This document shows positions 43,839 through 64,000 of a stretch of DNA of 64,000 bases, in pieces. The notes under the pieces are model-generated. The model made no database searches and was not told the DNA's origin. It worked only from the letters and a program-made list of their open reading frames with translations. Numbering within the stretch: the stretch's first letter is position 1; every line of letters begins with the position of its first letter. Source of the stretch: Nostoc sp. NOS(2021) (GTDB lineage: Bacteria; Cyanobacteriota; Cyanobacteriia; Cyanobacteriales; Nostocaceae); the NCBI RefSeq assembly GCF_017115025.1, contig NZ_JABXKM010000340.1:1-64000 (forward strand). Reading direction: 5' to 3'. The translations under genes were made by a program, and so were the position numbers.

Positions 43839-45323
43839 TCATTTAGGACTGCTATATGGCCAAGATTGGTTTTGAACTACTCGCGCATCCTCTTGGGCAA
43901 AGGCCAGGGCATCTCCAGGGCGAAGCAAGCAAATTGATACAGGAGAAGCGATCGCTCCATCTTTGCGCGTTCCAGAGCGCACAGTCGCTACCTGACAAAC
44001 ATGCTCTGGGGTTGGATCAACTGCCATGATGTGTGCTTGTGATCCATCAAGACAAGGGCCAAGACCGCGCTGCCAAAACCAAGGCGCACCCCCATCGGAG
44101 TAGGGTACAATTCGTTTGGCATTCCAGATTTCCGCTACATCAATTAAATCATCGGCATCGCACATCATCTTTTGGCGGACTTGCCAGCTCTTCTCTGGCA
44201 CAAAAGGAAGATAGCGAGCGACTGATGAAAAGAGATACTGAATCGGATACAGTCCGAAACCTCGATATCCACCAAATAAAGTATCAAGGGAACCATAACG
44301 CTCTAAGGCTGTGGCTGCAAGTTTTTTGACATCTCCTAGACAGTCACTCCCTGAATCTGCTGTGAGCGCAACACGGCGATCGCAGTACTCAATTAGGTAG
44401 GTGTTGCCCTGATTGCGAATCTCTGGGTGGAGGGCTTGGGCAACCGTTGGCTGTTCCCCGTAGAATGGCAGGGCAATAACTCGCATCCCACCAATTCGAG
44501 TTTCGTCAAACCAGCGTAGTGTGTGAATATTCTCGAACCCAAGCTGACGCAGCCGCAACGCCATATCAATTGCCAGTACAGATTCTCGCTTAACTTCGGG
44601 AACGAAGATTGGTGTGTTAGCAACAACTCGCAGCAAGGTTCCTAAATCAAAATGATCGGGGTGAGCATGGGTGATAAATACGGCATCGGGTTGTCCCATT
44701 TCCTCTAAGCTGAGGGGTTGGTAGTTTGGCGGATAAACTTCAGACTTGGGCAACAGAAATGGATCGAAGAGAATACTAGAGTTGCCATCACTGAGCCGGA
44801 GGGTGGAGTGACCGACAAAAGTGGCATGGCCCAGTTGCGGCTTGACGGCTAGTTCGTTGACTTCAACCAGTGCGCCATAATCACTCAATGCGTTCCATAA
44901 CTCGCAAGCAATGGTCGTAGTGGGAGCATTACTTCCTTGTTGCCATTCCCCTAGATACAAAGCTAGGTCGGATATAAGATTGGGAGATAATTCTTGGATG
45001 ACGATAGTTTCGCCAATATTGCGTTCCAGCTCAAGCGCAACGGGTTTAACGGCTTTGCGATCGGGATATAGCCAATCTTCCCAGAGGACACTAGGACTCT
45101 GATACAAATCCGCCAGACCACCCGGAACCATTGTCGATGCCAGTAATTCCCGCGCATGAGCCACCACATCTGCAAGACCATATCGATTGCGGTGGGCTGT
45201 GATGCTGGCGCAGTAGCGACGGATTGTGGTGTCACATTGTCCAGTCACAGCACTACCAAACTTGGTTTCGTCCTGATAAATGAGTTGGAATTTAATGCTG
45301 CTGCTTAATCTTTGACGTATCAT
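43839..45323 (-). CDS. Metallo-beta-lactamase-fold protein with N-terminal extension (RiPP cluster)
   Basis: A 494-residue protein. Residues ~165-400 are an UlaG-like metallo-beta-lactamase fold with HAHPDH at 219-224 as zinc ligands, preceded by GHSTLRLSDGNSSILFDPF. Residues 1-160 are an extension I do not recognise. A later VPYSDGGAPWFWQRG segment is matched by FPYASGLCFSGRHAWFNRYA in the protein encoded at 48133, so the two are distant paralogues. The start is ATG 45323; a TTG two codons upstream is in frame. Two mobile elements separate it from the LanB-like gene upstream. Possible roles are hydrolysis of a peptide or ester intermediate, or self-protection (inference). Confidence 0.78.
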   Translation of the reverse strand: MIRQRLSSSIKFQLIYQDETKFGSAVTGQCDTTIRRYCASITAHRNRYGLADVVAHARELLASTMVPGGLADLYQSPSVLWEDWLYPDRKAVKPVALELERNIGETIVIQELSPNLISDLALYLGEWQQGSNAPTTTIACELWNALSDYGALVEVNELAVKPQLGHATFVGHSTLRLSDGNSSILFDPFLLPKSEVYPPNYQPLSLEEMGQPDAVFITHAHPDHFDLGTLLRVVANTPIFVPEVKRESVLAIDMALRLRQLGFENIHTLRWFDETRIGGMRVIALPFYGEQPTVAQALHPEIRNQGNTYLIEYCDRRVALTADSGSDCLGDVKKLAATALERYGSLDTLFGGYRGFGLYPIQYLFSSVARYLPFVPEKSWQVRQKMMCDADDLIDVAEIWNAKRIVPYSDGGAPWFWQRGLGPCLDGSQAHIMAVDPTPEHVCQVATVRSGTRKDGAIASPVSICLLRPGDALAFAQEDARVVQNQSWPYSSPK

Positions 45324-45386
45324 AAGCAAGTTAATAGTTAAAAATCAAAAGTATACAATAAGACTTATGTAATAATTTTCTGAAAC

Positions 45387-45572
45387 GAATGGCACTAAGA
45401 AAAGCCGAAAGGCTTGTGTAACCTCCTTCCCAGTTTGAAGACTGGGAATGTATTCCAAGAGGGCTGCTGCCTCTGGTCAAGAAAGAGGAGGCGGAGCCTC
45501 CCAGAATGGGTTCCCAGCCTAGAGGCTGGGAACGAGGCAATACAAGACTTTGGACTTATCTTAGTGCCATTC
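45387..45572. mobile_element. ~186-bp inverted-repeat element (AATGGCAC family), copy 2
   Basis: Ends GAATGGCACTAAGA / ACTTATCTTAGTGCCATTC. The interior is shared with copies at 22639 and 54836 (GAAGACTGGGAATGTATTC, GAGGGCTGCTGCCTCTGGTC). Flanks TTTTCTGAAAC and CTCTCTGAAAC form an imperfect 11-base direct repeat. Confidence 0.88.
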
Positions 45573-45637
45573 CTCTCTGAAACTCTTATTTCTTTGTGTC
45601 CTTTGCGTCCTTTGCGGTTCGTTTTTTCATTATTTTT

Positions 45638-45745
45638 AGGACTTACGCACAGGTAACGGAAAATCGAACCACAGAGGCACAGAGAACACAGAGGAATAAG
45701 AGTTTGAGAGGTATTTTGCGTAAGCCATGATTTTGTGTAAGTCCT
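45638..45745. mobile_element. Short inverted-repeat element (AGGACTTACGCA ends)
   Basis: A 108-bp segment with ends AGGACTTACGCAC and, in reverse complement, AGGACTTACACAA. The interior includes AACCACAGAGGCACAGAG. No coding capacity. Confidence 0.65.
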
Positions 45746-45817
45746 GTACAACTTAAAGTTACCCCTGGTCTAAAGCACGGATTTATGGCAGATGTGCGCC
45801 TGTTCCTCCTTTCTTTT

Positions 45818-48133
45818 TCAACCAGCTACCCTTGTAATCGATGTTTCATCTCTACGCGACGACCAACCATGTTCGGTGCGGGCAAAGGGTAAGGCAAGTT
45901 CTGCCATATAATGCTGCCCTTTGGAGTCTACTAGCCAAGGTTGATTGACTAACTCTTCTACAATTAACCATCGGGTATATTTTTGTAGGTCTTTTTTGAA
46001 AAAGGATTCAACGGCTAAAGGGCTGTCCCGATGTACAAGGAGTGAAGGCTTATCCTCTATTTGCAGATTGAGCAGCATCGGCCAGCCATACTCAGCAGCT
46101 AATTGCTGCCATCTGGCAAAGCGCTCTATTCCAGTCAATTTGGCAAGTTCTACTAAGACTTGCCCACTCAAAACTGTCCGCCGAGGACGTAAAATCGCTT
46201 CTTTTGGCAGCTGAATACGAGGAGTGAAACGAGGTGCAGTCAGTTCAATCGGCATCGGTACTGTGGCAGCGCGAAAGATCGCCATCGGGTTATCTTGAAA
46301 AGTAGTCCAAAGTAACTGCTCAGAAATGGGGTCACGGGCATTAACCGCAGCCATAGAAAACCAAAACACTGCAACAGGGTTGGGCGAAGCCGATCGCAGT
46401 TTTAAAAAAGGCAGCTGTGTTTTGGGATCTAGAAAGATTTCTGCATCAACTAGGGATAGACTATCTTGACTCGCGCCCCACAACTCAATGGGAAGAATGT
46501 TGAAATTGGGACGAGCTAGCACATTTGGGTTTGGCTCAAAGGGACTTTGTAATTCTGCAACCTGAATTTGATGTTGGCTTGCTAAACAGTCAAGCTTCTG
46601 TTGAAACCAAGAATGTAGTAAATTATTTCCATTGAATAAGTCTTGAAATCGGGCAAAGATTGGCACCGGATCGTCACTAATCCCGTGAACTACTAGTTGG
46701 AAAGACTCAAATAGACCTGCGAACAAGCAACCGAAAGGGGCTGTGGACAGAGCCGACTTTGGCGAATTACTGCTGGTTTCGAGAACGACTACCTCTTTAT
46801 TTTGCGACAGCGATCGCTCCCACGCCTCCAACCGGGTGATGACTTCAGGATGGCGATCAGCTGTTCTCATTTCGGAAGCCAGGGTGGATTTGAGATCGCC
46901 AAGTGCAATACCCGCCGCAAATTCCTGTTTCAGTCGCTCACGAAACGCCATCCGCATTGCCGAGGCTGGACTCGCACCCTGAATCCAGCAGCGCTCGTAA
47001 TCTGCAAGTGTTTGCAGCAAAATGTTTTGCTGCGCCTCATTGATGCCAATCCGAAACGGTAGCCCCAAATCACAGTGCAGCACTAGATCGGATAGCTCAA
47101 CGGGTGAAACACCAAGGGCTTGGGCGAGTTCTTGAATATAGGTCTTTGCTTGTTGTAGATAATCCGCAAGTGCATCCAGAGAGATGAAATCAAGCTTTGC
47201 TGCCAGAGTATCGCAAAGGGAATGCAGTTCTTGGATAGCACTGTTCCAAAGACCGCGATCCGGCTCAATCAGCTTGTCTGCCACAACTGCTAATGCTTCC
47301 CAACAATTTTCAAATCGCTGGGGCAGGTCGAGTCCGCCTAAAAGCACACCTCCATCAATGAAGAGATGTAGAATATCCTCTAGTCCGGCTGCATGGTTCC
47401 AGCGAGGTGAGGCTGCCACTGTTTTGGCTAGTTCGTCTAATGTCCCTAGATCCAATTTCGTCAGTTCTTCCAAGAGGATGTCTACAATTTCCTGAGACTC
47501 GATTTCACGCTGCTCAACTAACCCCTCTGGAGTGCGACCCCAAAAGCGCCAGGAACCATCTGCTTGTCGCCTCAAGGTAGGATTCAATCGCCAAGTTGCA
47601 CCTTGACGATAAATTGAACGTTGAGCTAGCGATCGCAATATTGTTTGAAAAGGACGGAGGTCAGGTGTAAATGAATACTGAGCCGCTGCCGACTCATGCT
47701 GCGCCGTCTTGGCAAACTCGACTAAACTCACACCAGCCCATAAACCATAAGGTGTCGTTCGTCCCGCAGCCCGCGCTAGATAACGATATAGCGCCGTCTC
47801 CAGATGCCGAATTTTTTTAGTTCGTTTTCCCTGCCTTTCTAAAGCTCCACACTGCACCTCCGTGACGAGGGACGGATTAGATAACAGCAGAGCTTTCATA
47901 AACCATGAGTCGGCTGCGGTCATCTGCCAAAGCCGTTCGCGATCGTCTTCATGCACCTGCTGATAGGCTGTGGTATATTCTTTCCAGATATGAGCATCGT
48001 TTGTATGACTCGCTGCTAACGCTAGGCTTGCGAGTTCTTGATTGCCAAAACCTTGAATAGTCTCAATTGGCCAAGCAGCAGCCCGCAAGATCCCAACGGG
48101 GGCAAGCTCAAATTGTTTACTGGGATAATTCAT
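45818..48133 (-). CDS. LanB-type dehydratase, glutamylation-type protein (split LanB)
   Basis: A 771-residue protein of the lantibiotic dehydratase N-terminal family, which uses glutamyl-tRNA to activate Ser/Thr side chains of a precursor peptide. The hallmark RYLARAAGRTTPYGLWAGV is at residues ~117-135. Other family segments are FAPNPNVLARPNFN-like (FEPNPNVLARPNFNILPIEL) and the C-terminal WLIVEELVNQPWL. It lacks the C-terminal SpaB_C elimination domain, which is encoded separately at 60748-61590. This is the split arrangement known from thiopeptides. Translation starts at the ATG overlapping the upstream stop (TGATG at 48131-48135), so it is coupled to the MBL-fold gene upstream. Confidence 0.85.
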   Translation of the reverse strand: MNYPSKQFELAPVGILRAAAWPIETIQGFGNQELASLALAASHTNDAHIWKEYTTAYQQVHEDDRERLWQMTAADSWFMKALLLSNPSLVTEVQCGALERQGKRTKKIRHLETALYRYLARAAGRTTPYGLWAGVSLVEFAKTAQHESAAAQYSFTPDLRPFQTILRSLAQRSIYRQGATWRLNPTLRRQADGSWRFWGRTPEGLVEQREIESQEIVDILLEELTKLDLGTLDELAKTVAASPRWNHAAGLEDILHLFIDGGVLLGGLDLPQRFENCWEALAVVADKLIEPDRGLWNSAIQELHSLCDTLAAKLDFISLDALADYLQQAKTYIQELAQALGVSPVELSDLVLHCDLGLPFRIGINEAQQNILLQTLADYERCWIQGASPASAMRMAFRERLKQEFAAGIALGDLKSTLASEMRTADRHPEVITRLEAWERSLSQNKEVVVLETSSNSPKSALSTAPFGCLFAGLFESFQLVVHGISDDPVPIFARFQDLFNGNNLLHSWFQQKLDCLASQHQIQVAELQSPFEPNPNVLARPNFNILPIELWGASQDSLSLVDAEIFLDPKTQLPFLKLRSASPNPVAVFWFSMAAVNARDPISEQLLWTTFQDNPMAIFRAATVPMPIELTAPRFTPRIQLPKEAILRPRRTVLSGQVLVELAKLTGIERFARWQQLAAEYGWPMLLNLQIEDKPSLLVHRDSPLAVESFFKKDLQKYTRWLIVEELVNQPWLVDSKGQHYMAELALPFARTEHGWSSRRDETSITRVAG

Positions 48134-49902
48134 CAATCGTTCATATCCCGTGGTGAGCGGGCATATCTAGCTGTAGCCACGCGGCGATGATTGGTGAGCA
48201 GTGGCTCAATCACCCTAGTGTAATGTTGCTCCAACTTCACTACTGCGGTGAAATCTCGCATCACGGCTGAGTATCCTTCAAGACTCAATCCTGCTTCCCT
48301 TAACCATTGCTCTGTATCTTGGTTATCGAGCAAATCAAACTGCTCTCGAAAGGAGTCAGACATTGTTTGAATTTCCGCATCAGAAATCTTCAGCCCCAAG
48401 CGCTCTGCTTCTTTAACTGCCAAATAAGCCAGTAGGACTTTTTTACTCATCACTTCTTCGTTCTCACCTAAGCGGGTGAGAATCTGAATATCATCGCTAC
48501 TTTCGGGGGAATTTGATGCTTTCTCCGACTGGCCATCAGCTAATTCCGGTTGAACGGGAGAAGTTTCTCCAGTCCCAAAATGACGGAGATAGTAAGTAAG
48601 TGGGTCTGATGGGAAATCTTCGGGTGTTTTCGGCCACTTAGGAGACTCGAAACGACCATTGCGTACACAAATGACCTTTTCATAACTACGAGCCTCACCC
48701 GCCAGCCAAAAAATTAGCCCCGGCATTTTACCCGTCATCACATCGTCAAGAGCTTGTCCGGCGACGTGGGTAAAGAAGTTTGCTTCTGGATGCTCACCCG
48801 CTAACACGGAAAAATCCTGTAAGCGAAAATCAATGGCATAATTTAGCCGTTCTCCATCTCCGGTATGAACCACCAACTGCCAAACAACCTGCTCGGCAGG
48901 GAAACTAGCCCAACTGCTGTCAGCTTGTTTGACCTTTTGTTTGAGCCAGGAAATAAAAGATCCTGCCAGGAATGTATCCAGTTTTTGTTGCAAGGTATAC
49001 CGATCTTCAAGTGTGGACAATCCTGTAAGAGTGCTGATATCGATTGGTTCCCAACGCAACTCAGGAGATGGCTTTTCCCGGACAAAATCGGATGACTGTT
49101 CATATCGCTGCGGGGACTGCCCAGATCGAAGCTCAATCATATCACCGGGACGCACCGTTATCGCTCGCTCTGGGGAACTAAGCCGACGTTGCAACAAGCG
49201 AACTGTTTCCTCTGAACTTAAGGGAAACGCATAGCGGTTAAACCAGGCGTGCCGACCACTAAAGCACAGACCGGAAGCGTAAGGGAAAACCAAAGCAGGG
49301 TTGCAGGCACATGCTGCTTCCAACCAACTAACTACCCCTTGTCTGTCAAAGGTTGCTCCCATACCGTGCAGATAGCCCATGCTGGCACGCACTACTGGCT
49401 GATACTTGGTTGAAATTAGATCGATAGCACCGTATTCTCGCGTGATTCGTTCGCCAATTTCCGCCGTCACTTCTGCATCTGCCATGTGCCAGAATGTGCC
49501 AGTTGCATCTCGAACTAACAGCCCAAACTCCGGTTCTTCGTGGTCTGAAGGCGTGGGGAGCAAGTAAGTTTGTCCAAGAGCGATCGCTTGCCAAGGTTGA
49601 CAGATGATTATTTTTGAGAACCCAATCTTTTGCAGCTGTTCGACTAGTGCCGGTTCATCCGCAGTAATTACGGGCAGTTCGCGCGGAAGTTTCTGGAGCG
49701 TTTCTAGATGAAAATGATCGAAGTGCCCATGAGTCACCACCAAAGCTGTCAAGTTTGGCAGTTTGTCCAACTCAAATACCCGACCAGGATAGTACGTAAG
49801 CGTGCCCCCGACGAGTGTATCCGAAAAGCATGGATCGAGCAAGATGCGTTGATCGGTAGTTTCAATGTATAAAGCAGCATGACCACAGATAGTGACACGC
49901 AT
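48133..49902 (-). CDS. Metallo-beta-lactamase-fold protein with C-terminal helical domain (RiPP cluster)
   Basis: A 589-residue protein. Residues 1-260 are an UlaG-like MBL fold: ICGHAALYIETTDQRILLDP, HGHFDH at 58-63 for zinc, and FPYASGLCF near 205. A middle domain (~290-440) is unknown. Residues ~480-575 (AERLGLKISDAEIQTMSDSF, WLREAGLSLEGYSAVMRDF) resemble the N-terminal helices of PpiC/SurA-type proteins seen in some Nif11/NHLP peptide clusters (tentative). GGAAAG lies upstream of the ATG. It is the first gene of a minus-strand run MBL-LanB-MBL. Confidence 0.78.
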   Translation of the reverse strand: MRVTICGHAALYIETTDQRILLDPCFSDTLVGGTLTYYPGRVFELDKLPNLTALVVTHGHFDHFHLETLQKLPRELPVITADEPALVEQLQKIGFSKIIICQPWQAIALGQTYLLPTPSDHEEPEFGLLVRDATGTFWHMADAEVTAEIGERITREYGAIDLISTKYQPVVRASMGYLHGMGATFDRQGVVSWLEAACACNPALVFPYASGLCFSGRHAWFNRYAFPLSSEETVRLLQRRLSSPERAITVRPGDMIELRSGQSPQRYEQSSDFVREKPSPELRWEPIDISTLTGLSTLEDRYTLQQKLDTFLAGSFISWLKQKVKQADSSWASFPAEQVVWQLVVHTGDGERLNYAIDFRLQDFSVLAGEHPEANFFTHVAGQALDDVMTGKMPGLIFWLAGEARSYEKVICVRNGRFESPKWPKTPEDFPSDPLTYYLRHFGTGETSPVQPELADGQSEKASNSPESSDDIQILTRLGENEEVMSKKVLLAYLAVKEAERLGLKISDAEIQTMSDSFREQFDLLDNQDTEQWLREAGLSLEGYSAVMRDFTAVVKLEQHYTRVIEPLLTNHRRVATARYARSPRDMND

Positions 49903-50458: not shown

Positions 50459-51961
50459 GTGGAAAAGCCAATACACAATGTTGTAGTTTTTGGCGGAGGG
50501 AGTGCTGGATTTCTCTCTGCCTTAGCGTTGAAGGTGAAAATGCCAGCTTTGAACGTGGTCGTAGTCCATTCCACAACCATTCCAATTATTGGAGTGGGTG
50601 AAGCGACTACCGCTTGGATACCTTGGTTTCTGCATAAGTACTTAGAATTAAATCGAGAGCAATTTTATGAAGAAACACAACCTATTTGGAAACTAGGAAT
50701 TAAGTTTATTTGGGGAGATTCTAGTCAGTCTCACTTCAACTATCCTTTTGTGACTCATCTGGCAGATAAACTCAGTGTTTTGAGCAAAAGCACTGCTTAC
50801 TATTGTCTTGATTCAACCACAGAATCTAGTATTTACTCACTGTTGATGGAGCAGTGCAAGTCGCCTTGCTTCCGTAGAGAAAATGGGGATTTCGTAGTTG
50901 ATGAACGCTTTGGATACCATATTGAAAATGTTAGTTTCGTTTCTTATTTAGAAAGAAGAGCAACCGAAATTGATATCAAGATTATTGATCAACCTGTTGT
51001 AAATATTGAAGTCGCCGAAAATGGCTATATTCGCCAACTGAAGTTTGATGATGGCACAATGTTGGCTGGCGATCTGTTTGTCGATTGTTCTGGTTTTCGC
51101 TCGGCGTTGCTAGGAGAGATTCTGCAAGAACCCTTTTGCAGTTTTGCCAACAGTTTGTTTTGCGATTCTGCTGTCACAGGCACATGGATGCGAGATGATG
51201 CAATCAACCCATTCACAACTGCCCAAACCATGCAGAGTGGGTGGTGTTGGCAAATTGATTTGCAGGATAAAGTCAACCGTGGCTATGTATATTCATCCGC
51301 TTTTATCAATGATGATGATGCTCTGCAAGAGATGAAAGGCCACAATCCTTTGATGAGCGATCGCCATAGTATTGTAAGATTCAAGTCAGGGCGACATCAA
51401 CGATTTTGGGTAAATAATGTAGTCGCTGTGGGCAACGCTTCCGGTTTCGTAGAACCTCTAGAATCAACAGGATTACACATGATTGGCGAAACCATCAAAT
51501 CTGTGTGCGATGTGTTGATTGATTCAGACCAGCAACCCACCCCAGCATTAATTAATCTTGCGAATCGAGCGATCGCCCAAAAGTGGGATGATATTCGTGA
51601 TTTTTTGTCGATTCACTTTAAATTCAATCGCCGAGTAGAATCAGAATTCTGGCGACACTGCTGGCATCAAACTGATATTGGTGATGCAGAAGCAGTAGTA
51701 GACTTTTTTCAAAACAATGGCCCATCAAGCATTGGTCAAATTCTGCTCCGCCCCAATAGTGTTTTTGGATACAACGGTTATCTGAATCTGCTCATCGGTC
51801 AACGAGTGGCTACGAAGTATCAAAGCTACAATGACACCTGGGATTTAGATCATTGGCGACAAGTCAAAAACTATTTCACGAAGCAGTGTGCTAACGCCTT
51901 ATCAATCCATGAGGCGATTCAGGTTGTTAAAGAAAGAAAATGTCAATGGCTGACTTCATAA
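50459..51961 (+). CDS. Flavin-dependent tryptophan halogenase-like protein 1
   Basis: A 500-residue protein with the tryptophan halogenase fold: FAD motif VVVFGGGSAGFLSALAL at 8-24, GVGEAT at 45-50, WKLGIKF with Lys78 (corresponding to the catalytic Lys of PrnA-type halogenases), GFVEPLESTGLHMI carrying the conserved Glu, and FKFNRRVESEFW. The WxWxIP motif reads GWCWQIDL, so the Pro is replaced by Asp. Such enzymes chlorinate or brominate Trp using FADH2, halide and O2, and need a flavin reductase, none of which is in the window. The start is a GTG just after a mobile element; the ribosome binding site is poor. It overlaps the next gene by 22 bases. Confidence 0.85.
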   Translation: MEKPIHNVVVFGGGSAGFLSALALKVKMPALNVVVVHSTTIPIIGVGEATTAWIPWFLHKYLELNREQFYEETQPIWKLGIKFIWGDSSQSHFNYPFVTHLADKLSVLSKSTAYYCLDSTTESSIYSLLMEQCKSPCFRRENGDFVVDERFGYHIENVSFVSYLERRATEIDIKIIDQPVVNIEVAENGYIRQLKFDDGTMLAGDLFVDCSGFRSALLGEILQEPFCSFANSLFCDSAVTGTWMRDDAINPFTTAQTMQSGWCWQIDLQDKVNRGYVYSSAFINDDDALQEMKGHNPLMSDRHSIVRFKSGRHQRFWVNNVVAVGNASGFVEPLESTGLHMIGETIKSVCDVLIDSDQQPTPALINLANRAIAQKWDDIRDFLSIHFKFNRRVESEFWRHCWHQTDIGDAEAVVDFFQNNGPSSIGQILLRPNSVFGYNGYLNLLIGQRVATKYQSYNDTWDLDHWRQVKNYFTKQCANALSIHEAIQVVKERKCQWLTS

Positions 51962-55093: not shown

Positions 55094-56311
55094 TCAAACA
55101 ATCGTTAACAATCCTTCTTTGAGCAAACGGCGTACCAACACGATCTTGCTATTGTCGCTGGCAAAATCGGGCAGCGATTTGATCTCAAATGCGGCTTCCG
55201 ACTCAGCAATGAAGCGGAAAGCTGGCTCGACATAGGCTGGCCCTTCAACTCGGTTTTGGGGAAATTGAATCATCACCACATCCCCTTTCCTGACGGTTGT
55301 ACAAATCATTCCTTGGCGTTTGACAACGTGGGTATCCAAGTCAATCTGTTGCAACTCGTCTAATTTACTGAAATGGCTATCTGCGAGTGGAGACAGTGAG
55401 CCAATGAACTTAATAGTCAGTCGTTCAACCGCATCGTCAATGTCGGCGCTACTAGCGAAGGTTTTGAGTAAATCTGTCAATTGATTTTTGGTCTGCGTCT
55501 TGGCATCATTGTCACGCAAAAAGCTAACGGGAACTGCTTTGCGAAATTCGACATTTTGCTGCACAATCGATATGAGAGCTTCCTGAATCAGGTCAATCCA
55601 GCGATAAACAGGGATACCTACGGTGATATGAAGTGAGGAAGTATCCAACGTCTTGGCTTCATGCACAAAACCACGCGGGATATATAACAGATCACCTGGC
55701 TTGAGTTCAACTTCATGAGTGGGTGCGTTCAGTTGCTCCCGTAGTACTTCTTGTGGTAATCGCCGAGCATCTTCTGGCATTGGCAAATCCCAGTAGGAAT
55801 CATAGGTGCGCCAAAGTTTAGTTCCCGAAAGCTGAAGAACAAAAACATCGTGTGTATCAAAGTGGGGAGGAAATCCTTGAGCAGTCTTAGGGGTCAGGTA
55901 AAGATTGACATTCGCTGGATGATTGAGATATTGTTCCAGATTTCTGCAAAGTGTGGCGATCGCTTCCCAGTGCTGTTGCAGATGAAATATACATAAGGTA
56001 TTGCCTTGATGATAGGCATCATAAAATTGATAAATACTAGGAGATGCATTGGGATCGATAGAGCCTTTCCCCCCTGATTTATTCGCTTGATTGGACAAAT
56101 CATCTGCCACTTTCGATACATTAAAGTCAGAATAGCGAATGCCACTAAAGCGAATGAGCGAGTCAAGGTCGTTCATGGAAAACAGACCGGAATAGTAATC
56201 TGTTTCTCCTCGTGAAACAACCAGGGACTGCCGCTCCCAGTATTCTTTGAAGAAGGTTACGGTATCGATAGGTTGAATTAATTTCTCAAAATCAAAGTTA
56301 GTGCTAAACAT
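55094..56311 (-). CDS. JmjC/cupin_4-type Fe(II)/2-oxoglutarate oxygenase (RiPP cluster)
   Basis: A 405-residue protein resembling bacterial ribosomal oxygenases (YcfD/RoxA) of the JmjC group. The N-terminus has the family pattern FFKEYWERQSLVV..GLFSMNDLDSLI. Fe(II) ligands are visible as H150-x-D152 in PPHFDTHDVFVLQLSGTKLW and H217 in YIPRGFVHEAKT. The C-terminal winged-helix-like part ends KIVLVRRLLKEGLL. Family members hydroxylate protein side chains, so a hydroxylation of the peptide is plausible. It is the last gene of the minus-strand run YcaO-TfuA-JmjC, 87 bases after TfuA. Confidence 0.85.
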   Translation of the reverse strand: MFSTNFDFEKLIQPIDTVTFFKEYWERQSLVVSRGETDYYSGLFSMNDLDSLIRFSGIRYSDFNVSKVADDLSNQANKSGGKGSIDPNASPSIYQFYDAYHQGNTLCIFHLQQHWEAIATLCRNLEQYLNHPANVNLYLTPKTAQGFPPHFDTHDVFVLQLSGTKLWRTYDSYWDLPMPEDARRLPQEVLREQLNAPTHEVELKPGDLLYIPRGFVHEAKTLDTSSLHITVGIPVYRWIDLIQEALISIVQQNVEFRKAVPVSFLRDNDAKTQTKNQLTDLLKTFASSADIDDAVERLTIKFIGSLSPLADSHFSKLDELQQIDLDTHVVKRQGMICTTVRKGDVVMIQFPQNRVEGPAYVEPAFRFIAESEAAFEIKSLPDFASDNSKIVLVRRLLKEGLLTIV

Positions 56312-56398: not shown

Positions 56399-58108
56399 TT
56401 ACCTTATACTTAGTTCTTTCACAAATTCTTCTGGTTCGCTAAAATCTAGCCAAAAAGCCACTTGGGTAATGTTACATGCCTGCGGAAAGGCATTTACCTG
56501 ACGCCAGTTTCTCAGATCAGCTTCCCAAGAATAGCTTTGTGTTTGTTCAGATAACTGAACTCTTTTGCTTAAAATTGGATAAAATCCAGACAGCCTTAAG
56601 GCATCGGCAAGAAAGCACTCACTCACTGAGAAATAGTTGCTCATACCTCGCCCCCACCATCGGGGTACATTGACAAATCCCTCTAGCCGCGCGATCGCTT
56701 CCATCATCTGAGAAAATTCACCTTGAGTGAGGGAATTGCTGGATAGCCAAGCCGGAAATTCAGCCTCGTTAGTAACTCCCCTTTCTTGGAAAAAATGTTG
56801 CGTAATTTTTTGAGTAATGCTAATCCTCAAACTCGCTTCCGATTGGCTGTTTGTCTGTTCGGCTAAAGCCCAGAGGATGGCAACCTGACGATACAATCTA
56901 CATTCACAACTCGCTAATGCAGTAACAATATCTGTATCTGCGTTAGTTGTCTCTTCCTGATCTGAGGAGATATTCTTACCAACAATCATCAAGATAAATT
57001 GATGCAATTGCTCAACCTTTTTGGCAAAGGTATCGTATGCACTATGAAGTTTGAGCAATGCCTGAATACGACCCAAACGTTCAACTAAGACTGGTATTGC
57101 TGATGCATCCACATCTAACTCTAGTTCATTAACATCAGAACTCGAACCCAATATTTGAGAACTGTAAACGTCAGTTAAATCAGCAGCCGAGGGTTGCAGA
57201 TTTTGGTGTTGGGCTACAGCATCACACCAACGAATTAGCCCAGCGAGATTACGCAATTGAATGTAAACCCTGCCTAGAAATCGGGCTTCTTGGGATACTT
57301 TTTCAGTCAGAGGCAACCAGGAATATGCTGTCCGTATTGGACGGATAGCAACTCTAGCCTGAAGTTCTTCTATGAAAATGGACTTGTTGAGTTGAAAGTT
57401 TACCTGCTTATTGGCAGCAGTACCACCACTTTCTCCAACCATAGCGGCCAGATGTTTCAGCAGTTCAATGGCATCTGACTGTTTCTGATCCACATACCCG
57501 CCATTTTGCACAAATTCCCAAAACTGGGCTAAAATCTGGCGATCGCCCCCCTGCACCTCGGCATCAGCCACTGCTTGGCTCAAATGTCGTTGACTGAAGA
57601 ACTGCCGTTTGGCACAACTGATAATTAAATTAGCGATCGCCGGATCAATAATATTTTTGTCTACCGCCAGCTGAACTGTAGCGCGGATGTTTACTAAGGC
57701 ATCGGTTAAGGGTTGGTATTGGAACTGAGGATTGCTATGTAAAATTGCCACTTCATCATCCCCGATGTACCGTTTTTCTTGGTAGGCTGCAAAAATAGCT
57801 CCAAATCCCTCCATGCCAAAGGCTTCCAGTTCAGCGGCTCGGAGCGCACCCATGCTACTTGCCCCAAATACCCGCACTCCTGCTTCTAATGCCCAGAGAA
57901 TCTCCTTATGCCAAACTGAAGCGCTGCGGTCAAAAAAACCGTCAATAATGGCAATTACACGCGGCTGTAACCGCAGACAGGCAAGAATATCACCACAACG
58001 GACAGGAGCAAGGTAACGGGCCGGTAAAATTTGACTGGCTTGGGTAACGGCTAGGGTGGGGCCAAGAAAGACGATAATTTGACTAGGTTCCAAAGAATTC
58101 GAGTGCAT
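56399..58108 (-). CDS. TfuA-domain protein (YcaO partner)
   Basis: A 569-residue protein. The N-terminal ~130 residues are a TfuA domain: IIVFLGPTLAVTQASQILPA, VIAIIDGFFDRSASVWHKEI, GVRVFGASSMGALRAAELEA and DDEVAILH. TfuA proteins accompany YcaO enzymes and supply or process sulfur for peptide thioamidation (known for methyl-coenzyme M reductase and thioamitides). The C-terminal ~430 residues are helical and not recognised; the TfuA proteins I know are much shorter. The start lies 8 bases after the ycaO stop codon, indicating cotranscription. Confidence 0.87.
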   Translation of the reverse strand: MHSNSLEPSQIIVFLGPTLAVTQASQILPARYLAPVRCGDILACLRLQPRVIAIIDGFFDRSASVWHKEILWALEAGVRVFGASSMGALRAAELEAFGMEGFGAIFAAYQEKRYIGDDEVAILHSNPQFQYQPLTDALVNIRATVQLAVDKNIIDPAIANLIISCAKRQFFSQRHLSQAVADAEVQGGDRQILAQFWEFVQNGGYVDQKQSDAIELLKHLAAMVGESGGTAANKQVNFQLNKSIFIEELQARVAIRPIRTAYSWLPLTEKVSQEARFLGRVYIQLRNLAGLIRWCDAVAQHQNLQPSAADLTDVYSSQILGSSSDVNELELDVDASAIPVLVERLGRIQALLKLHSAYDTFAKKVEQLHQFILMIVGKNISSDQEETTNADTDIVTALASCECRLYRQVAILWALAEQTNSQSEASLRISITQKITQHFFQERGVTNEAEFPAWLSSNSLTQGEFSQMMEAIARLEGFVNVPRWWGRGMSNYFSVSECFLADALRLSGFYPILSKRVQLSEQTQSYSWEADLRNWRQVNAFPQACNITQVAFWLDFSEPEEFVKELSIR

Positions 58109-58116: not shown

Positions 58117-59301
58117 TTACAAAGAGGAAGGGAGATGCATACCCGGTATAATCACATGCACCACTGGAATACCATACTCCGGTCGCGTATGATTGACAAA
58201 GACAGCTTGCTTAAATCCCTGAGTACTCAGACAACTGAGAATTTGTTGAATTTCTTCTGCAAACGTTGGGGTAAAGGCTAGTTCAGGCTGAGTTTCAAAA
58301 TCAATCAGGGTAGCGATCGGTCTTTTGCTGCTAGACTTCATCGCTGGGCTACCTGGCATCCTGATACGTCCAAGGGCATAACTATCTGGATGAATGTCAT
58401 CCCGACTACCCGCAATAACCGTTACTCGTGACTGAGCCGCTTCAGTGATCGCCCGTGCTAGGGCAATTTCTTTGGAACTGTGGCATCCCCACCCGGCTGC
58501 TGTCGGTCGTCCATGCCAGTTTTCCTGATCACTAATCAAGCATTTATAGGTAGGTATCCCGATAGTTGAGCTTAAGTCAGTAATCACGGCTGTCGCCCCG
58601 GCAAGTCTCACTTGATAGAGTAAAGATTGCAAAAGCGGAGACTGGATGGTTTGACTATCAACCAAGCAGTTAATCCGTTCTTCCAGAGGAAAGCGCCACC
58701 AACGCCACTCAGCTTCCCGCTCAATGACTTCAAACAATCCATGAGCGATCGCTTCTAGTAAATGGTTTCCTGATGCTAGTCCATTACTAGAAGTGCTGAA
58801 CAGATAAGTATCACATTTTTCTGTTGTGGTGTCTAAATCAAGATACGCCTGTGGTACGTAAACAGGTTCACCCGTAAATAGATCGGTTCCACAAATCCAA
58901 TCTAGCACTCTAGCAGGATAATAGGACTGCGATCGCTTACCTGGCTCTAAAACGCTAGGATCAATTGCCTGGTGATGTCGGCAGACTTCCTCATAAGAGG
59001 CAACCATCTCTGGCTGTGGGAGGTTTTCTGCATGATAAGACTCCACAGATTCCATCGCTGCCGAGATCATCGCCAGCAAAAGTGAAATTCCCTTGCCTTG
59101 AGAACCAGAAAAGGCTTTTCCGTTAGGACGAATCGCTTGAGCAACAGGAATACCAATGCAGTCAAGACCAGTAATGTCTGCAACACGCGTGATGCCAAAA
59201 GCACTCAGAAGTCCTTGTAGTTTCTCCCAAGTAGAATTGGGTTCTTCTGTCCGAAACGTGCCATTAAGATTCAGCTTAGGAGCATTCAGATTTTGCCACA
59301 T
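58117..59301 (-). CDS. YcaO-domain enzyme (thioamide/azoline forming)
   Basis: A 394-residue YcaO protein that would activate backbone amides with ATP. ATP-binding motifs are visible: SQGKG at 67-71 with E84 and E87 in SAAMESVESY, NGLASGN at 173-179 followed by E183, E191 and E194, and SRVTVIAGSRDD. The C-terminus (MHLPSSL) lacks the PxPxP end typical of azoline-forming enzymes. With the adjacent TfuA gene this favours thioamidation, but the E1-like domain encoded at 51940 leaves azoline formation open. I start at ATG 59301 (MWQNLNAPKLN); the frame extends to 59397 through poor sequence. A mobile element separates it from the precursor gene. Confidence 0.88.
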   Translation of the reverse strand: MWQNLNAPKLNLNGTFRTEEPNSTWEKLQGLLSAFGITRVADITGLDCIGIPVAQAIRPNGKAFSGSQGKGISLLLAMISAAMESVESYHAENLPQPEMVASYEEVCRHHQAIDPSVLEPGKRSQSYYPARVLDWICGTDLFTGEPVYVPQAYLDLDTTTEKCDTYLFSTSSNGLASGNHLLEAIAHGLFEVIEREAEWRWWRFPLEERINCLVDSQTIQSPLLQSLLYQVRLAGATAVITDLSSTIGIPTYKCLISDQENWHGRPTAAGWGCHSSKEIALARAITEAAQSRVTVIAGSRDDIHPDSYALGRIRMPGSPAMKSSSKRPIATLIDFETQPELAFTPTFAEEIQQILSCLSTQGFKQAVFVNHTRPEYGIPVVHVIIPGMHLPSSL

Positions 59302-59418
59302 TCGCTTGTTTCTTTCCCTAACTATTGCTGCGAGTAATAATAAATACTCGCTCTTTAACGCACTTAAGTGTTTCTTAATGTGTTGTATTAAGCACACGAC
59401 ACATTACGTTATTAATTA

Positions 59419-59878: not shown

Positions 59879-60241
59879 CTACCAGCAACACATGACTGTC
59901 TCTTTAACTACGGATGAAGCCATTCCACCAGCTACACTTTCTAACTCATTTTCTGACAATTCTCGGTTAGCTGGTCTTGCTTTAATACCGTTAACGCTAT
60001 CAATAGACCGGATATTCACAGATGGAGAAGCAGTTGACAAACCTAGAACCTTTCTTTCAGCAGAAACCATCACGGCTTTCACGTCATCAGTGTTAAAATC
60101 AAAACCGTTTGTCTGGCCTTGTTCAACAGCGATTCTTGCAAACTCACCTGCTTCAGTAGCATCCAACGCTTCACGCAGCGGCGAATTGGCTGGTTGGCCT
60201 AAAAAATTTTCATAGTATTCGACAAAACTTTGCTGAGACAT
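59879..60241 (-). CDS. Nif11-leader RiPP precursor peptide
   Basis: A 120-residue precursor. Residues 1-60 follow the Nif11-type leader (SFVEYYENFLGQPANSPLRE; FARIAVEQGQTNGFDF). The leader ends LSENELESVAGG with the double Gly at 105-106, the expected cut site of a C39-peptidase exporter. The core is the last 14 residues, MASSVVKETVMCCW, with two Ser, one Thr, two Cys and one C-terminal Trp. Leaders of this type bear cores handled by many enzyme classes. A textbook ribosome binding site (AAGGAG, 60250-60255) lies 8 bases before the ATG. It is the only precursor I can find in the window; others could lie beyond 64000. Confidence 0.9.
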   Translation of the reverse strand: MSQQSFVEYYENFLGQPANSPLREALDATEAGEFARIAVEQGQTNGFDFNTDDVKAVMVSAERKVLGLSTASPSVNIRSIDSVNGIKARPANRELSENELESVAGGMASSVVKETVMCCW

Positions 60242-60636: not shown

Positions 60637-60659
60637 GGGACTGGGGACTGGGGACTGGG
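60637..60659. repeat. Heptameric short tandem repeat (GGGACTG x3)
   Basis: GGGACTG GGGACTG GGGACTG GG, the complement of the CCCCAGT-type STRR of heterocystous cyanobacteria. Confidence 0.85.
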
Positions 60660-60747
60660 TTGAAAGTCTGTTTGTATATAGGTTTTATCATCAGTTAATG
60701 TCCTAACCTCCTTGTCCGTTGCTATATATAGCAAGACTGTAGGAATT

Positions 60748-61590
60748 TCATCTTCTTGCATTCTTTCCCTCAAGGGTTCGGATTATAGCTTCAATTAGCC
60801 TTCCTGAACGATGCGAATCAAACCCGTGGCGGTGAAAATTGAACATTGCGACTGCGGCCAGTATGTCAACCAAATCCTGAGTCAATTGACCAAGATGCTG
60901 GAGATTAACTAATTCCTTTGCAAGCATGTCGTTAGCTGTTGCATATTTTTGCAATATATCTGCTTCTAGAGATTCATCCAAAGTTTCGAGAGAAAGTAGT
61001 TCAACTGTTGGAATTGTGGCTTCAGGAGGTGTGGGAATCAAAGCCGCTAAACTGTGCCAGGTTGCGAGAATAGATACCCGATCTGACAGAGTGCGGGTAA
61101 AGAGATCGTGCAACACAGTTGGCAGAAGTAAGTCTTTGGAGACAACATCAAGGTTATGTTGTTCAAGATGGTCAAGCATGAGCCATATTGAAGTGTCTGC
61201 GTCGAAGTGCTGATGAACCGACTTCATGGCTTGCAGCCCCCCAAATCGTTCAGTTTCAGGCTCATAGTCACTAAAGAAAAATAAATTAATCAAATTCTCA
61301 CGCTCAAGAGCATACATGAGATCGGAAATATCTGCGATCGCTTGTTGCCGATCCACTGTTGTAAAAAAGCGCACCCGGACATCTGGCGGCTTTCTCATAA
61401 AGAAGAAACAGCGCAACAACTCATTACTCCGCCAGTGAGTAACCAACGGTTCGAGGCGGGCAAAGAGGGCACGCGCACTTGATAGTGCATTACCCTGATG
61501 CCTGACGAGTCCCACATTAAGTTGCACCCAATCGCCGTTTTCCCAGTCCTGACTACTAGATTGTGTAGTTGAAGTTGATTCGTCGGTCAT
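60748..61590 (-). CDS. SpaB_C / thiopeptide-type dehydratase C-terminal protein (split LanB)
   Basis: A 280-residue protein of the SpaB_C (thiopeptide-type bacteriocin biosynthesis) family. Diagnostic segments are WVQLNVGL at 21-28, FFFMRKPPDVRVRF at 62-75 and YEPETERFGG at 109-118. In split systems this domain eliminates glutamate from glutamylated Ser/Thr to give dehydroamino acids; relatives instead catalyse pyridine-forming cycloaddition. It complements the LanB protein at 45818, 13 kb away. The start is ATG 61590; the frame extends to a TTG at 61662. It diverges from the cupin gene at 61695. Confidence 0.85.
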   Translation of the reverse strand: MTDESTSTTQSSSQDWENGDWVQLNVGLVRHQGNALSSARALFARLEPLVTHWRSNELLRCFFFMRKPPDVRVRFFTTVDRQQAIADISDLMYALERENLINLFFFSDYEPETERFGGLQAMKSVHQHFDADTSIWLMLDHLEQHNLDVVSKDLLLPTVLHDLFTRTLSDRVSILATWHSLAALIPTPPEATIPTVELLSLETLDESLEADILQKYATANDMLAKELVNLQHLGQLTQDLVDILAAVAMFNFHRHGFDSHRSGRLIEAIIRTLEGKNARR

Positions 61591-61694
61591 GAAATGTCTT
61601 TTACCACAGTTCAATGATGTTAAATCAAGAAAAGAAAGGTTGACAATAGAAGCTGGCTTCAAGCAGCATTACGGCATGTTAGCAATAAAAAAAC

Positions 61695-62702
61695 GTGGTT
61701 CTCGACAACATCGACCGTATCGAAGCACCTCCAGCAGATGTGTTTTACCGAGAGTATATTCTGCCCCAGCGTCCAGCGATCATCACCAATCTCTTTGAAA
61801 ATTCATCACTGCGTCCGATGGATACCCTTGAAAAGGTAAAAACAGGGCTGACTGACATCCCAGTTCAAATCTGTCCAAATTACATCGCTCATCTGCTAAA
61901 TTCGACATCAGCTGATGTTCCCCGAATGATCAATTTAGGTGCATATCTTGACTTCCTACAAGCACAACCCACAAGTCTTGATATCTGTGTTGAGTATCCT
62001 ACGCCCCAAAAGCTACTTCAGTTATTGCCCCTGAATTCATACCAACATTTAAATGATCAGAGCGACCTATACTCGAATATGTTTGTCGCTGCCAGCAATA
62101 ATTATGCTCATTTGCACTATGATGCCGATCAACGTAATGTTTTGTTGTTTCAAGTTTTTGGCACAAAGCGATTTGTATTGATTCATCCGCGTGAAACTCA
62201 AAAGCTAGATGCGATCGATCAGCCTAATCTCTGCCGTACCAGTGGCATCTTCCTGGAAAATCTCTTAGAAGCTGAGAAAACGGATTTTCTCCGATATACC
62301 AACGCTTATGATGCGGTACTTTATCCTGGTGAAACTATTTTCATGCCCATGATGATCTGGCACTACATTGAGTACTTGGAACCGGCCATGTCAATTGCTT
62401 ATCGTTTGGGACGCAACGCTTATAATCGGCGATTGGCTAAACTTTTTCCAGCCCCTTCGGTTGATGTTCAGTCCTTGTCGCTGTTGCTGCAAGATGAGAC
62501 AGAAGCACAATCACATCATCTAGAATGGTTAAATAAACTAGAGGCTGTAAGCGATTCATTATCGGGGAGTGAAAGCGATCGCAGGGACACTTTGAACTAC
62601 CTTTCCCTAAGAATTCGGGGGCAATATCTTGGTCTTGAGCCGATCAAGAATATTCGAGAGTTGAGAAGACGTGAAGCGATGCTAAACACTTGCCTGTTCT
62701 GA
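61695..62702 (+). CDS. Cupin-like/JmjC-type oxygenase 2 (RiPP cluster)
   Basis: A 335-residue protein of the cupin-8/JmjC type. Fe(II) ligands are H141-x-D143 in AHLHYDADQRNVLLFQVFG and H223 in MPMMIWHYIEYLEPAMSI, within the fold GTKRFVLIHP..YPGETIFMP. The N-terminus FYREYILPQRPAIITNLF is typical of peptide and protein hydroxylases of this group. It differs from the JmjC protein at 55094 in length and overall sequence, so the two probably have separate substrates or sites. It starts with GTG. Its 3' end overlaps the converging ABC transporter gene by 21 bases. Confidence 0.85.
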   Translation: MVLDNIDRIEAPPADVFYREYILPQRPAIITNLFENSSLRPMDTLEKVKTGLTDIPVQICPNYIAHLLNSTSADVPRMINLGAYLDFLQAQPTSLDICVEYPTPQKLLQLLPLNSYQHLNDQSDLYSNMFVAASNNYAHLHYDADQRNVLLFQVFGTKRFVLIHPRETQKLDAIDQPNLCRTSGIFLENLLEAEKTDFLRYTNAYDAVLYPGETIFMPMMIWHYIEYLEPAMSIAYRLGRNAYNRRLAKLFPAPSVDVQSLSLLLQDETEAQSHHLEWLNKLEAVSDSLSGSESDRRDTLNYLSLRIRGQYLGLEPIKNIRELRRREAMLNTCLF

Positions 62703-64000
62703 CCGAATCAACCGTGCATAGGAACCATCAAGCTGCGACATTTCTTTGTGGGTACCGCGTTGCACTACTTTACCCTTTTCTAGAACAATAATTTCATCAC
62801 AGTCGCGGATGGTACTGAGACGGTGAGCCACAATAATGCAAGAACAGCCTCGATAGCGCAGATTTCGGTCAATAATTTTTTCCGTCTCTGCATCTAAGGC
62901 ACTGGTTGCTTCGTCCATGATCAGAATTGTTGGATCGTTGACTAATGCACGGGCAATTTCTAAACGCTGGCGCTGTCCTCCACTGAAATTAGCAGCACCC
63001 TCAAGTAAATTACCTTCATACCCTTTAGGTAAAGCTAAAATCACATCATGAATAACAGCATCTTTGCAAGCTCGGACTAATTGAGAATTAGATACTGTAT
63101 CATCCCATAAGGTCAAGTTATCTCGGACAGTGCCGGCGAACAGAAAAATTTCCTGTTCTACCATTGCCAAGGAATTAGAAAGTATTGCCCTAGTAATTTG
63201 CTCTCTGGGGATACCATCAAAGAGAATTTCTCCCGACCAAGGTTGATACAGCCCCGCTACCAATTTGGCAACTGTTGATTTACCAGAACCACTACTACCA
63301 ACTAGGGCTACCCGCTGTCCTGGTTTCAGTTGAAAACTCAGGTCTTGAATTAGAGGCCCATCTGTGCGTGAGTAGCCAAATGTGACATTTTTTAATTCTA
63401 CATATCCCTTAAGTTCGCAGGCTGAAGCAGACTGTGAGGTATGTAAATTATGACTATCCAATTCTGAATCGGTTGAGTTTTGCAACACATCATCCAGGCG
63501 ATTTAAGTCTCCTTCTAGTTCCTGTAAGGTACTGCCGAAATTGACTAGAGAGTTGACTGGAGTCAAAAAGCTAGTCATTAAACTTTGGAAAGCAATCAAC
63601 ATCCCAATGCTGAGATGCCCATCCATGACTCGTAGACCACCAATAACTAAAACTGATAGGGAGCTTAAACTAGTTAAGAAAACAGGTACAACGCCTAGTA
63701 CTTGATTAGTAACACCTAACTCTTGCTGACCGTTGATAAATTTTGTATAGTAACCTGACCAACGGGAGAAGTAATCAGATTCCAAGGCTGATGCTTTGAG
63801 GGTTTCCATACTCTGAAGGGCAGCAATTTCTGTACCTGCAACCTTGCCCCGATCTTGGATGATTCGCATATAAATATCTGTGCGCTGGCGGGAAATCCAC
63901 TGCAAAGTCAAGATATTAATCGCAGCAAAACAGATACCGATCGCAGTCAGCACTCCATCATAAGCAAACATCACTAAGGCATAAAATACCACCATGACGG
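62682..64000 (-). CDS. ABC exporter permease-ATPase, 5' end outside the window (peptide export)
   Basis: The visible 437 codons cover the last membrane segments (MVVFYALVMFAYDGVLTAIG; VFLTSLSSLSVLVIGGLRV) and a complete ATPase: Walker A LVGSSGSGKST, signature FSGGQRQRLEIARA and Walker B ILIMDEATSALD. The frame stays open to the window end, so the start lies beyond 64000. The sequence resembles the NHLP/Nif11-type bacteriocin exporters whose N-terminus carries a C39 peptidase that cuts after GG. That peptidase would lie outside the window and is not seen. It would export and mature the peptide. Confidence 0.88.
   Translation of the reverse strand, partial: VMVVFYALVMFAYDGVLTAIGICFAAINILTLQWISRQRTDIYMRIIQDRGKVAGTEIAALQSMETLKASALESDYFSRWSGYYTKFINGQQELGVTNQVLGVVPVFLTSLSSLSVLVIGGLRVMDGHLSIGMLIAFQSLMTSFLTPVNSLVNFGSTLQELEGDLNRLDDVLQNSTDSELDSHNLHTSQSASACELKGYVELKNVTFGYSRTDGPLIQDLSFQLKPGQRVALVGSSGSGKSTVAKLVAGLYQPWSGEILFDGIPREQITRAILSNSLAMVEQEIFLFAGTVRDNLTLWDDTVSNSQLVRACKDAVIHDVILALPKGYEGNLLEGAANFSGGQRQRLEIARALVNDPTILIMDEATSALDAETEKIIDRNLRYRGCSCIIVAHRLSTIRDCDEIIVLEKGKVVQRGTHKEMSQLDGSYARLIRSEQASV

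Follow-up and report, generated by a model that had tools for sequence, protein, structure and literature searches.

The characterised system closest to the one reported here is srp of sponge symbionts, in which SrpC turns the CCC of a short core (SrpE, LCCCW) into thiazolines and SrpI brominates the C-terminal Trp by way of an LxxxxL motif (PMC10858898). SrpI and MppI are both peptide brominases, with the Trp of proteusin or Nif11-like substrates as their target (PMC10858898, PMC11791876). YcaO-TfuA in the company of a split LanB dehydratase is already known from the thioamidated thiopeptides saalfelduracin and thiopeptin, and TfuA clusters, including some whose precursors are Nif11- or CCRG-2-like, have been counted earlier in Nostoc, Anabaena and Bradyrhizobium (PMC8120280); the words 'halogenase' and 'lactamase' are absent from the main text of that study, whose supplement may list these loci. 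We analysed a stretch of 64,000 nucleotides (hereafter, the window) from Nostoc sp. NOS(2021), which forms the first 64 kb of an 85,933-bp contig (C302, NZ_JABXKM010000340.1) of a 7.6 Mb genome and has its relatives in Nostoc and Trichormus. It contains, at positions 43839-64000, most of a ~30 kb cluster (C302:43839-73714) for a ribosomally synthesised and post-translationally modified peptide (RiPP). This is likely to be a working cluster for a RiPP family marked by the core [S/E]T[V/I/T]MC[C/P/A][W/F]. We found no description of a family with this heptapeptide tail in the open-access literature, subscription journals lying outside the search. The strings TVMCPW, TIMCPW, TIMCCW and TVMCCW have no mention there and pentapeptide strings occur only in papers unrelated by title; nor did the same literature yield a description of TfuA, YcaO and a halogenase together in cyanobacteria.

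The precursor (59879-60241, minus strand, 120 residues) carries a leader with LSENEL, an LxxxxL motif, and GG, and its tail, MASSVVKETVMCCW, ends in ETVMCCW. Because its score with the Nif11 leader model TIGR03798 (23.9 bits, 3.7e-5) lies under the curated cut-off of 32.3 bits, while it has the GG and an adjoining NHLM exporter, we call it Nif11-like. Orthologues were found in six further Nostocaceae. In all of these Nostoc precursors a long leader, bearing L-x4-L and GG, is followed by a variable spacer and then by an invariant T-[VI]-MCCW, with a C-terminal Trp in 7/7 of the Nostoc-type precursors seen.

The same ending recurs far from Nostoc. A search of genome contigs with a TfuA alignment gave 227 relatives, the best 80 of which were compared. 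Eight of these 80 loci (L038-L041, L053, L058, L059 and L105) held relatives of the dehydratase halves LanB-N or SpaB_C or of the metallo-beta-lactamase (MBL)-fold protein MBL1 described below. The tail T-x-M-C-x-[WF] was present in seven of the eight; the other, L041, starts ~0.2 kb before tfuA, and its precursor would fall off the contig. It was found in none of the remaining 72 loci. A chance origin was rejected, since the 1.46 Mb concerned gave seven real matches compared with two in total over 20 mononucleotide shuffles. We also searched 242 Bradyrhizobium genomes with SpaB_C (three matches, two being the known L058 and L053 genomes) and, with MBL1, 321 genomes of the gammaproteobacterial class of L059 (three matches, that of L059 among them) and 282 genomes of Myxococcota, the phylum of L105 (seven matches, that of L105 among them). 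No tail was found in the read stretches of G1394 (two loci) and G1388, which hold only a 28-31% relative of MBL1. Altogether, the tail [SE]T[VIT]MC[CPA][WF] closes 19 precursors with differing leaders in 18 genomes: seven Nostocaceae, three Bradyrhizobium, three Gammaproteobacteria and five Myxococcota. It ends in CCW (8), CPW (9) or CAF (2); the Thr is preceded by Ser in 16/19 and by Glu in 3/19 (window, G467 and G486), and followed by Val (12), Ile (6) or Thr (1). The search pattern, T-x-M-[CS]-x-[WFY]-stop, misses other tails and partly builds in the Thr, the Met and the aromatic end; similarly, kin outside cyanobacteria were reached via TfuA, SpaB_C or MBL1, so that the search itself partly accounts for their having these genes in common. 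By eye, leaders are Nif11-like in Nostoc, in the gammaproteobacteria and in the myxobacterial G1240 (in G1001 also by tblastn), of another type in Bradyrhizobium and short in L105. Since the tail alone is common to all precursors, it is probably their product-forming part. The precursor of G1130 (L175:13307-13714) has the tail STTMCPW behind an N-terminus, MNRRVFIKQAA..., that looks Tat-like by eye, which suggests a different export route in some myxobacteria.

LanB-N occurs in 8 of 217 Nostocaceae genomes, that of the window included, and all eight also carry the long TfuA. Here and below, absence of a gene means absence from the stretches read, apart from genome-wide checks for LanB-N and the long TfuA in Nostocaceae, for LanB-N in G563 and for TfuA. 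The first-pass annotation of the window had proposed a hybrid RiPP cluster; every gene in its list lies where it had been placed, with matching Pfam or NCBIfam profiles, and the genes stand together around one precursor in three relatives. In Nostoc calcicola FACHB-3891 (L038/G467), everything from ABC2 to MBL1 is kept, including cup1, with other open reading frames (ORFs) between cup1 and the fused halogenase; G422 keeps the gene order of the window, with cup1 lacking and cup2 inverted; and G340 has all genes but cup1 within ~27 kb, the block mbl1-lanBN-mbl2-trpH1-fusion lying at the opposite flank of the exporter block. To that annotation we add the conserved C-terminal heptapeptide, a leader-binding-like domain on the second halogenase and the CmlA-like nature of the MBL proteins. 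Ratios of nonsynonymous to synonymous substitution rates (dN/dS; Nei-Gojobori, own script, 13 of the 17 genes of the cluster) were 0.10-0.32 against N. calcicola (13 genes), 0.095-0.42 against G422 and 0.087-0.26 against G340 (12 genes each, cup1 being without counterpart). Gene decay in the window was rejected on the basis of these values, well under 1 for the 13 genes. The cluster is real and conserved, apparently under selection, and belongs to a wider family than the first-pass annotation could show.

The genes tfuA (56399-58108, minus strand; PF07812 1.6e-44; NF033432 3.1e-59, below cut-off), whose product has a long C-terminal extension, and ycaO (58117-59397, minus strand; PF02624 1.1e-74) are adjacent and near the precursor, the gene set expected of a thioamidated RiPP. 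YcaO is nearest to the thioamidation type, with 1.3e-62 for the McrA-Gly thioamidation model TIGR03266 (below cut-off) versus 5e-36 for the SagD type. It is possible, if doubtful, that YcaO works with TfuA or the E1-like domain of the fused halogenase to make thiazolines from Cys, as thiazole/oxazole-modified microcin (TOMM)-type enzymes do and as happens in srp, and not a thioamide. The CCW ending resembles the LCCCW of SrpE, the fused region is TOMM leader-binding-like and the SagD-type match exists; however, the thioamidation model fits YcaO better, ycaO adjoins tfuA, 11 of the 19 tails have a single Cys, and several relatives without the fusion retain YcaO-TfuA. The thioamide remains the reading that we prefer.

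Dehydration of the core would depend on a LanB split into two genes: lanB-N (45818-48136, minus strand), with a glutamylation-type Lant_dehydr_N domain (PF04738 1.3e-21), and a SpaB_C-type elimination domain, Lant_dehydr_C (60748-61662, minus strand; PF14028 7.1e-19, TIGR03891 1.3e-19). Both functions needed for LanB-dependent dehydration are thus encoded. The R-x3-R-TTPYGLW region of LanB-N aligns with NisB and 5ehk, and profiles of the two halves match the corresponding N- and C-terminal parts of these proteins (1.2e-6 for SpaB_C and the NisB C-terminus); a phmmer search of the PDB with the single SpaB_C sequence led nowhere. In the myxobacterial G1240, MBL1 and Lant_dehydr_C form one ORF of 754 residues, linking hydroxylase and dehydratase. 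A frame change in lanB-N of Nostoc sp. CMAA1605 (L041:8047-10529) may be an assembly error or decay.

Two other products of a LanB have to be weighed. PEARL-type relatives of LanB are peptide aminoacyl-tRNA ligases that extend the C-terminus. If LanB-N were one of them, the residue added at the C-terminus would be halogenated and then excised as a small molecule, in agreement with the conservation of only a C-terminal stub, mostly ending in Trp, and with a LanB-N devoid of a fused elimination domain; but this seems quite improbable, as SpaB_C is present in 16/16 genomes where LanB-N was seen, G553 included, its profile matches the elimination part of NisB, and the core Thr stands in 19/19 tails (it is built into the search pattern). 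We also hold a class I lanthipeptide to be very unlikely. Here a methyllanthionine ring would be closed between dehydrobutyrine and Cys, the cyclase being either another enzyme or the MBL proteins. The split LanB and a Thr and Cys three residues apart would suit it, and a CmlA-like relative adjoins LanB and LanC in Streptomyces sp. ADI95-16, but no LanC was detected among 20 cluster and neighbour proteins scanned with NCBIfam or 11 scanned with Pfam, ORFs under 84 residues falling mostly outside the scans. A thiopeptide was rejected because these same scans gave no second, cycloaddition-type SpaB_C protein (one PF14028 match in the 11 proteins, one TIGR03891 match in the 20). We retain dehydration by the split LanB as the preferred reading of these genes.

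The characterised enzymes CmlA and FrsH serve nonribosomal peptide synthetase (NRPS)-type pathways. HxHxDH is the metal motif of CmlA, and CmlA-like genes are reported from such pathways in work on NRPS lipopeptides (PMC9248904). The two MBL-fold proteins of the first-pass annotation hold good as a fold, both being Lactamase_B_2 members: MBL1 (43839-45329, minus strand; PF12706 3.5e-11) and MBL2 (48133-49902, minus strand; PF12706 5.5e-14), the latter with a C-terminal PpiC-related, TIGR04500-like region. Their best matches are diiron beta-hydroxylases. A profile of six MBL1 orthologues matched FrsH (8a90, 2.5e-17) and CmlA (4jo0, 1.3e-15) in the PDB, and MBL1 has HAHPDH at 221-226, E292 in the column of CmlA E377 (Glu in CmlA, Asp in the deposited E377D mutant 5kil) and D325. 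HxHxDH, GE and D[SA] were kept in every covering row among 19 further MBL1 ORF rows, which include two halves of one gene and two rows of the same strain. A Foldseek search with the AlphaFold model of MBL1 (predicted local distance difference test score, pLDDT, 64; predicted template modelling score 0.74) placed CmlA/FrsH structures in the five best positions, at 9.9e-20 to 3.2e-17 (CmlA 9.9e-20, FrsH 1.2e-19), the first hydrolase following at 4.1e-12. MBL1 thus combines the MBL fold, HxHxDH and the E377-equivalent Glu of CmlA/FrsH diiron monooxygenases. For MBL2, FrsH was again the best match (7e-11; TIGR04500 2.2e-6, far under cut-off), and the Glu position, kept in the Nostoc and gammaproteobacterial rows though not in all kin, is less constant than in MBL1. 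Ordinary hydrolases or resistance genes were rejected in view of the CmlA/FrsH best matches and the Glu ligand kept in MBL1. MBL1 is a candidate diiron beta-hydroxylase and probably no hydrolase, with MBL2 as a weaker relative.

Relatives of MBL1 also occur on plasmids. In Streptomyces sp. ADI95-16 (L193, NZ_CP033582.1, 13901-24618), a protein 38.6% identical over 96% adjoins LanB, LanC, a thiopeptide-type protein and GrrM, and a small protein there has TTMC. In Pseudanabaena galeata (L194, NZ_CP112877.1, 2345-11382), an MBL1-like protein adjoins LanM and two 2-oxoglutarate (2OG) oxygenases, and the Nif11 precursor ends in Trp (PPIKW), so that an MBL1-like enzyme is again paired with a C-terminal Trp.

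Flavin halogenases usually carry the motif WxWxIP. The first of the two in the cluster, trpH1 (50459-51961, plus strand; PF04820 1.2e-108), is a Trp_halogenase-family flavoprotein that keeps GGGSAG, the K78 motif and PLES; as WCWQID stands in place of WxWxIP, halogenase activity is less sure for this protein. The second gene (51940-54606, plus strand; PF04820 1.2e-109) encodes a fusion of an E1-like region, with a probable RiPP recognition element (RRE; residues ~1-377), to a flavin-dependent halogenase (~384-835) that has GGGTAG at 388, K456 and WCWNIP at 636. It thereby joins the flavin adenine dinucleotide (FAD) motif, catalytic Lys and WxWxIP of SrpI/MppI-type Trp halogenases, and the core provides a Trp. 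TIGR03882 (TOMM leader-binding) matched 8/8 fusion N-terminal regions at E<=1 (best 6.7e-8, window copy 0.018), their profile aligned in the PDB with MccB, LynD, TruD and PaaA at E 0.001-0.54, and weak signals came from the PqqD model (E 0.08) and from an alignment with the RRE part of LynD. The N-terminus is a candidate leader-binding domain, probably with an RRE. The same fusion occurs in the gammaproteobacterial G1001 (48%) and twice in G1240 (51% and 40%) and is therefore no local accident. In a phylum-wide sample of 386 cyanobacterial genomes, the fusion was matched at E <= 1e-10 in ten, with coverage of its N-terminal part confined to G340, G024 and the genome of the window; a plasmid search gave 90 records, none spanning 80% of the query and the best adjoining NRPS genes. 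In G024, frame changes interrupt the fusion gene (L023:7522-10198, with a Pro/His/Thr-rich stretch), by assembly error or decay. A fusion of RRE and halogenase is not described in the available text of PMC12615548 (which has neither RRE nor YcaO), PMC7470986 (no halogenase) or PMC12710340 (halogenase once, in a reference), and that of PMC13060819 contains no CmlA, YcaO or TfuA.

The fusion accompanies the CCW ending, being present in 7/7 CCW Nostocaceae (interrupted in G024) and in G1240, the eighth CCW genome; in the stretches compared, G1001 is the only CPW or CAF genome with a halogenase. The two putative Fe(II)/2OG oxygenases are similarly restricted. cup1 (55094-56311, minus strand; JmjC_2-type, PF08007 7.9e-30) was seen, among the Nostocaceae stretches compared, only in the window, N. 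calcicola and G486, and cup2 (61695-62702, plus strand; Cupin_8/JmjC-like, PF13621 9.5e-18) occurs in the CCW Nostocaceae, with only a piece in G486, and adjoins the fusion in G1240 (35%). Halogenases and cupins are lineage-specific.

Several observations weigh against a single, uniformly conserved pathway. Dispersal of the enzymes over unrelated operons in relatives, named beforehand as an argument against the cluster, was seen in one relative, G486: its genes are spread along a single contig, near 0.89, 6.76 and 7.22 Mb; its trpH1 is truncated, and of cup2 just a piece was seen in the short stretch read at the third of these sites. Not one tailoring enzyme is shared by all 18 tail genomes. 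LanB-N is present in 15 of them (absent genome-wide from G563, not seen in the read stretches of G1130 and G1401). TfuA is present in 16, near the precursor or on its contig in 14 and on another contig in G1383 and G1240, and was not found in G1001 and G1401. MBL1 occurs in 14/15 tail genomes outside Bradyrhizobium, and was not seen in the three Bradyrhizobium nor in G517, where the contig ends. In L105/G563 and G1130, Pfam gives no Lant_dehydr_C match for the protein that we aligned as SpaB_C-like. As to structure, the fold match of the MBL1 model is moderate (TM score 0.53-0.60, root-mean-square deviation 9-11 Å), and the AlphaFold model of the fusion is of low confidence (mean pLDDT 32, its N-terminus showing strands and then three helices at pLDDT ~35-57), so that the RRE rests on weak sequence matches. 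Bradyrhizobium has B12-type radical SAM genes, and tblastn showed them in G1018, G1383 and G1130 too; a plasmid search with the Bradyrhizobium LanB gave no match.

That a YcaO-TfuA-precursor-exporter unit and an independent MBL-LanB-halogenase unit are mere chance neighbours is hardly credible: G340 has the two blocks in permuted order, G024 has them on separate contigs and G486 far from each other, but LanB-N and the long TfuA mark the same eight Nostocaceae genomes, the blocks are adjacent in G422 and N. calcicola, and in the gammaproteobacterial L059 and G1018 the same core goes with LanB-N, SpaB_C, YcaO, TfuA and MBL proteins of both types.

Beyond the tailoring genes, the 'exporter ATPase' first annotated at the end of the window was correctly recognised but has a fuller identity: it is the C-terminal part of an NHLM C39-peptidase/permease/ATPase (62682-63998, minus strand, running to C302:64943; TIGR03796, 1176.8 bits). 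The cluster does continue past 64000, as far as C302:73714, with NHLM HlyD (C302:64964-66406), a cyc_nuc_ocin protein (C302:66503-67543) and NHLM ABC2 (C302:71039-73714), all above cut-off. With TIGR03796, TIGR03794, TIGR03896 and TIGR03797 above cut-off, the NHLM exporter is complete. A 256-residue protein and, by eye, a CHASE2/cyclase-type protein lie before ABC2. Overlaps of 22 nt between trpH1 and the fused halogenase and of 4 nt between lanB-N and mbl2 suggest coupled translation.

Before position 43839 lie a small ORF and an 807-residue ORF that reads, by eye, as MutS2-like. Directly downstream of the cluster (C302:74939-85917) lie two tandem paralogous giant kinase/histidine-kinase-like genes (by eye), and a similar ORF adjoins the cluster in G024 (L023:2003-7456). 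Elsewhere in the window, a 1715-residue ORF (1845-6992), in which many WD40-like repeats and an ATPase-like region can be made out by eye, adjoins an ATPase-like ORF of 445 residues. Different TfuA-YcaO clusters exist in other cyanobacteria. One (L033, G019 C26:236001-256000) has a Nif11-like precursor ending in SSCSQW, again with a C-terminal Trp, together with a halogenase-family relative, an MBL2-like protein and, by eye, a radical SAM-like protein and a 2OG-type oxygenase, with no LanB-N match in the stretch. In L035 (G129) and L036 (G008), YcaO-TfuA adjoin LanM-like proteins of more than 1000 residues (by eye) and C39-type exporters.

A halogenated, thioamidated, dehydrated and hydroxylated product is a reasonable prediction from the families present, and from these we also infer the roles of the two halogenases and the two MBL proteins. 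The Nif11-like leader, with its LxxxxL and GG, would be bound by the E1-like/RRE region and by other enzymes. LanB-N, by Glu-tRNA-dependent glutamylation, and the separate SpaB_C, by elimination, would dehydrate the Thr of the core, together with any Ser that it has; YcaO-TfuA would place a thioamide in the tail, and one or both CmlA/FrsH-like enzymes, recognisable by fold and ligand positions, would beta-hydroxylate a core residue. In the Nostoc type, the invariant C-terminal Trp would be the target of the fused halogenase, and further oxidation or halogenation may come from trpH1 and the cupin enzymes. The NHLM peptidase-exporter would cut after GG and export the peptide, and further trimming would probably leave a very short product, since only the last 6-7 residues are conserved. 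A bolder combination, rather unlikely when all its parts are taken together, is a new RiPP family of at least four lineages whose product is the C-terminal heptapeptide alone and in which a CmlA-like enzyme is paired with the LanB elimination domain. The diiron enzyme would beta-hydroxylate an unactivated Val/Ile, Met or Trp and the elimination domain would remove the new hydroxyl, giving dehydrovaline-like or dehydrotryptophan-like residues otherwise beyond LanB, while a halogenase with its own leader-binding domain would tag the terminal Trp in the Nostoc branch.

That a near-invariant heptapeptide persists from cyanobacteria to myxobacteria, while leaders and tailoring enzymes differ, suggests a conserved binding partner for the product. 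The tail also offers a defined signature with which to search for members of what looks like an uncharacterised RiPP family. Two of the enzymes are unusual: the candidate diiron beta-hydroxylase in a ribosomal pathway, and the halogenase with what seems to be a leader-binding domain of its own, which could be adapted to the late-stage labelling of other peptides.

Compared with known systems, the cluster shares with srp the long protein-like leader with LxxxxL, the short Cys-rich core ending in Trp (LCCCW versus TVMCCW), YcaO and a flavin halogenase for the C-terminal Trp. It differs in that srp has no gene for an RRE, nor does SrpI contain one, the srp leader is of the proteusin type and the Cys of the srp core become thiazolines; TfuA is absent from the main text on srp, and LanB and CmlA-like enzymes are not named in its available passages (PMC10858898). 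The mpp cluster of Moorena producens (MppE/MppM/MppI) is likewise cyanobacterial and has a Nif11-like leader, a Trp flavin brominase and an oxygenase gene, whereas it directs a LanM lanthipeptide with the core ACWRWSG, YcaO-TfuA and LanB not being among the genes listed in the available text (PMC11791876). Thioamidated thiopeptides have the same YcaO-TfuA and split LanB (PMC8120280), but also a cycloaddition enzyme, the second SpaB_C-type protein that the scanned proteins of the window cluster lack. The export genes agree with the NHLM/NHLP system for Nif11 precursors (TIGR03794/03796/03797) in all three components and in cyc_nuc_ocin, with no notable difference. Finally, MBL1 resembles CmlA and FrsH (4jo0, 8a90) in its best profile and fold matches and in the HxHxDH, E377-equivalent and Asp columns, but it sits in a RiPP cluster and, in one genome, is fused to a LanB elimination domain.

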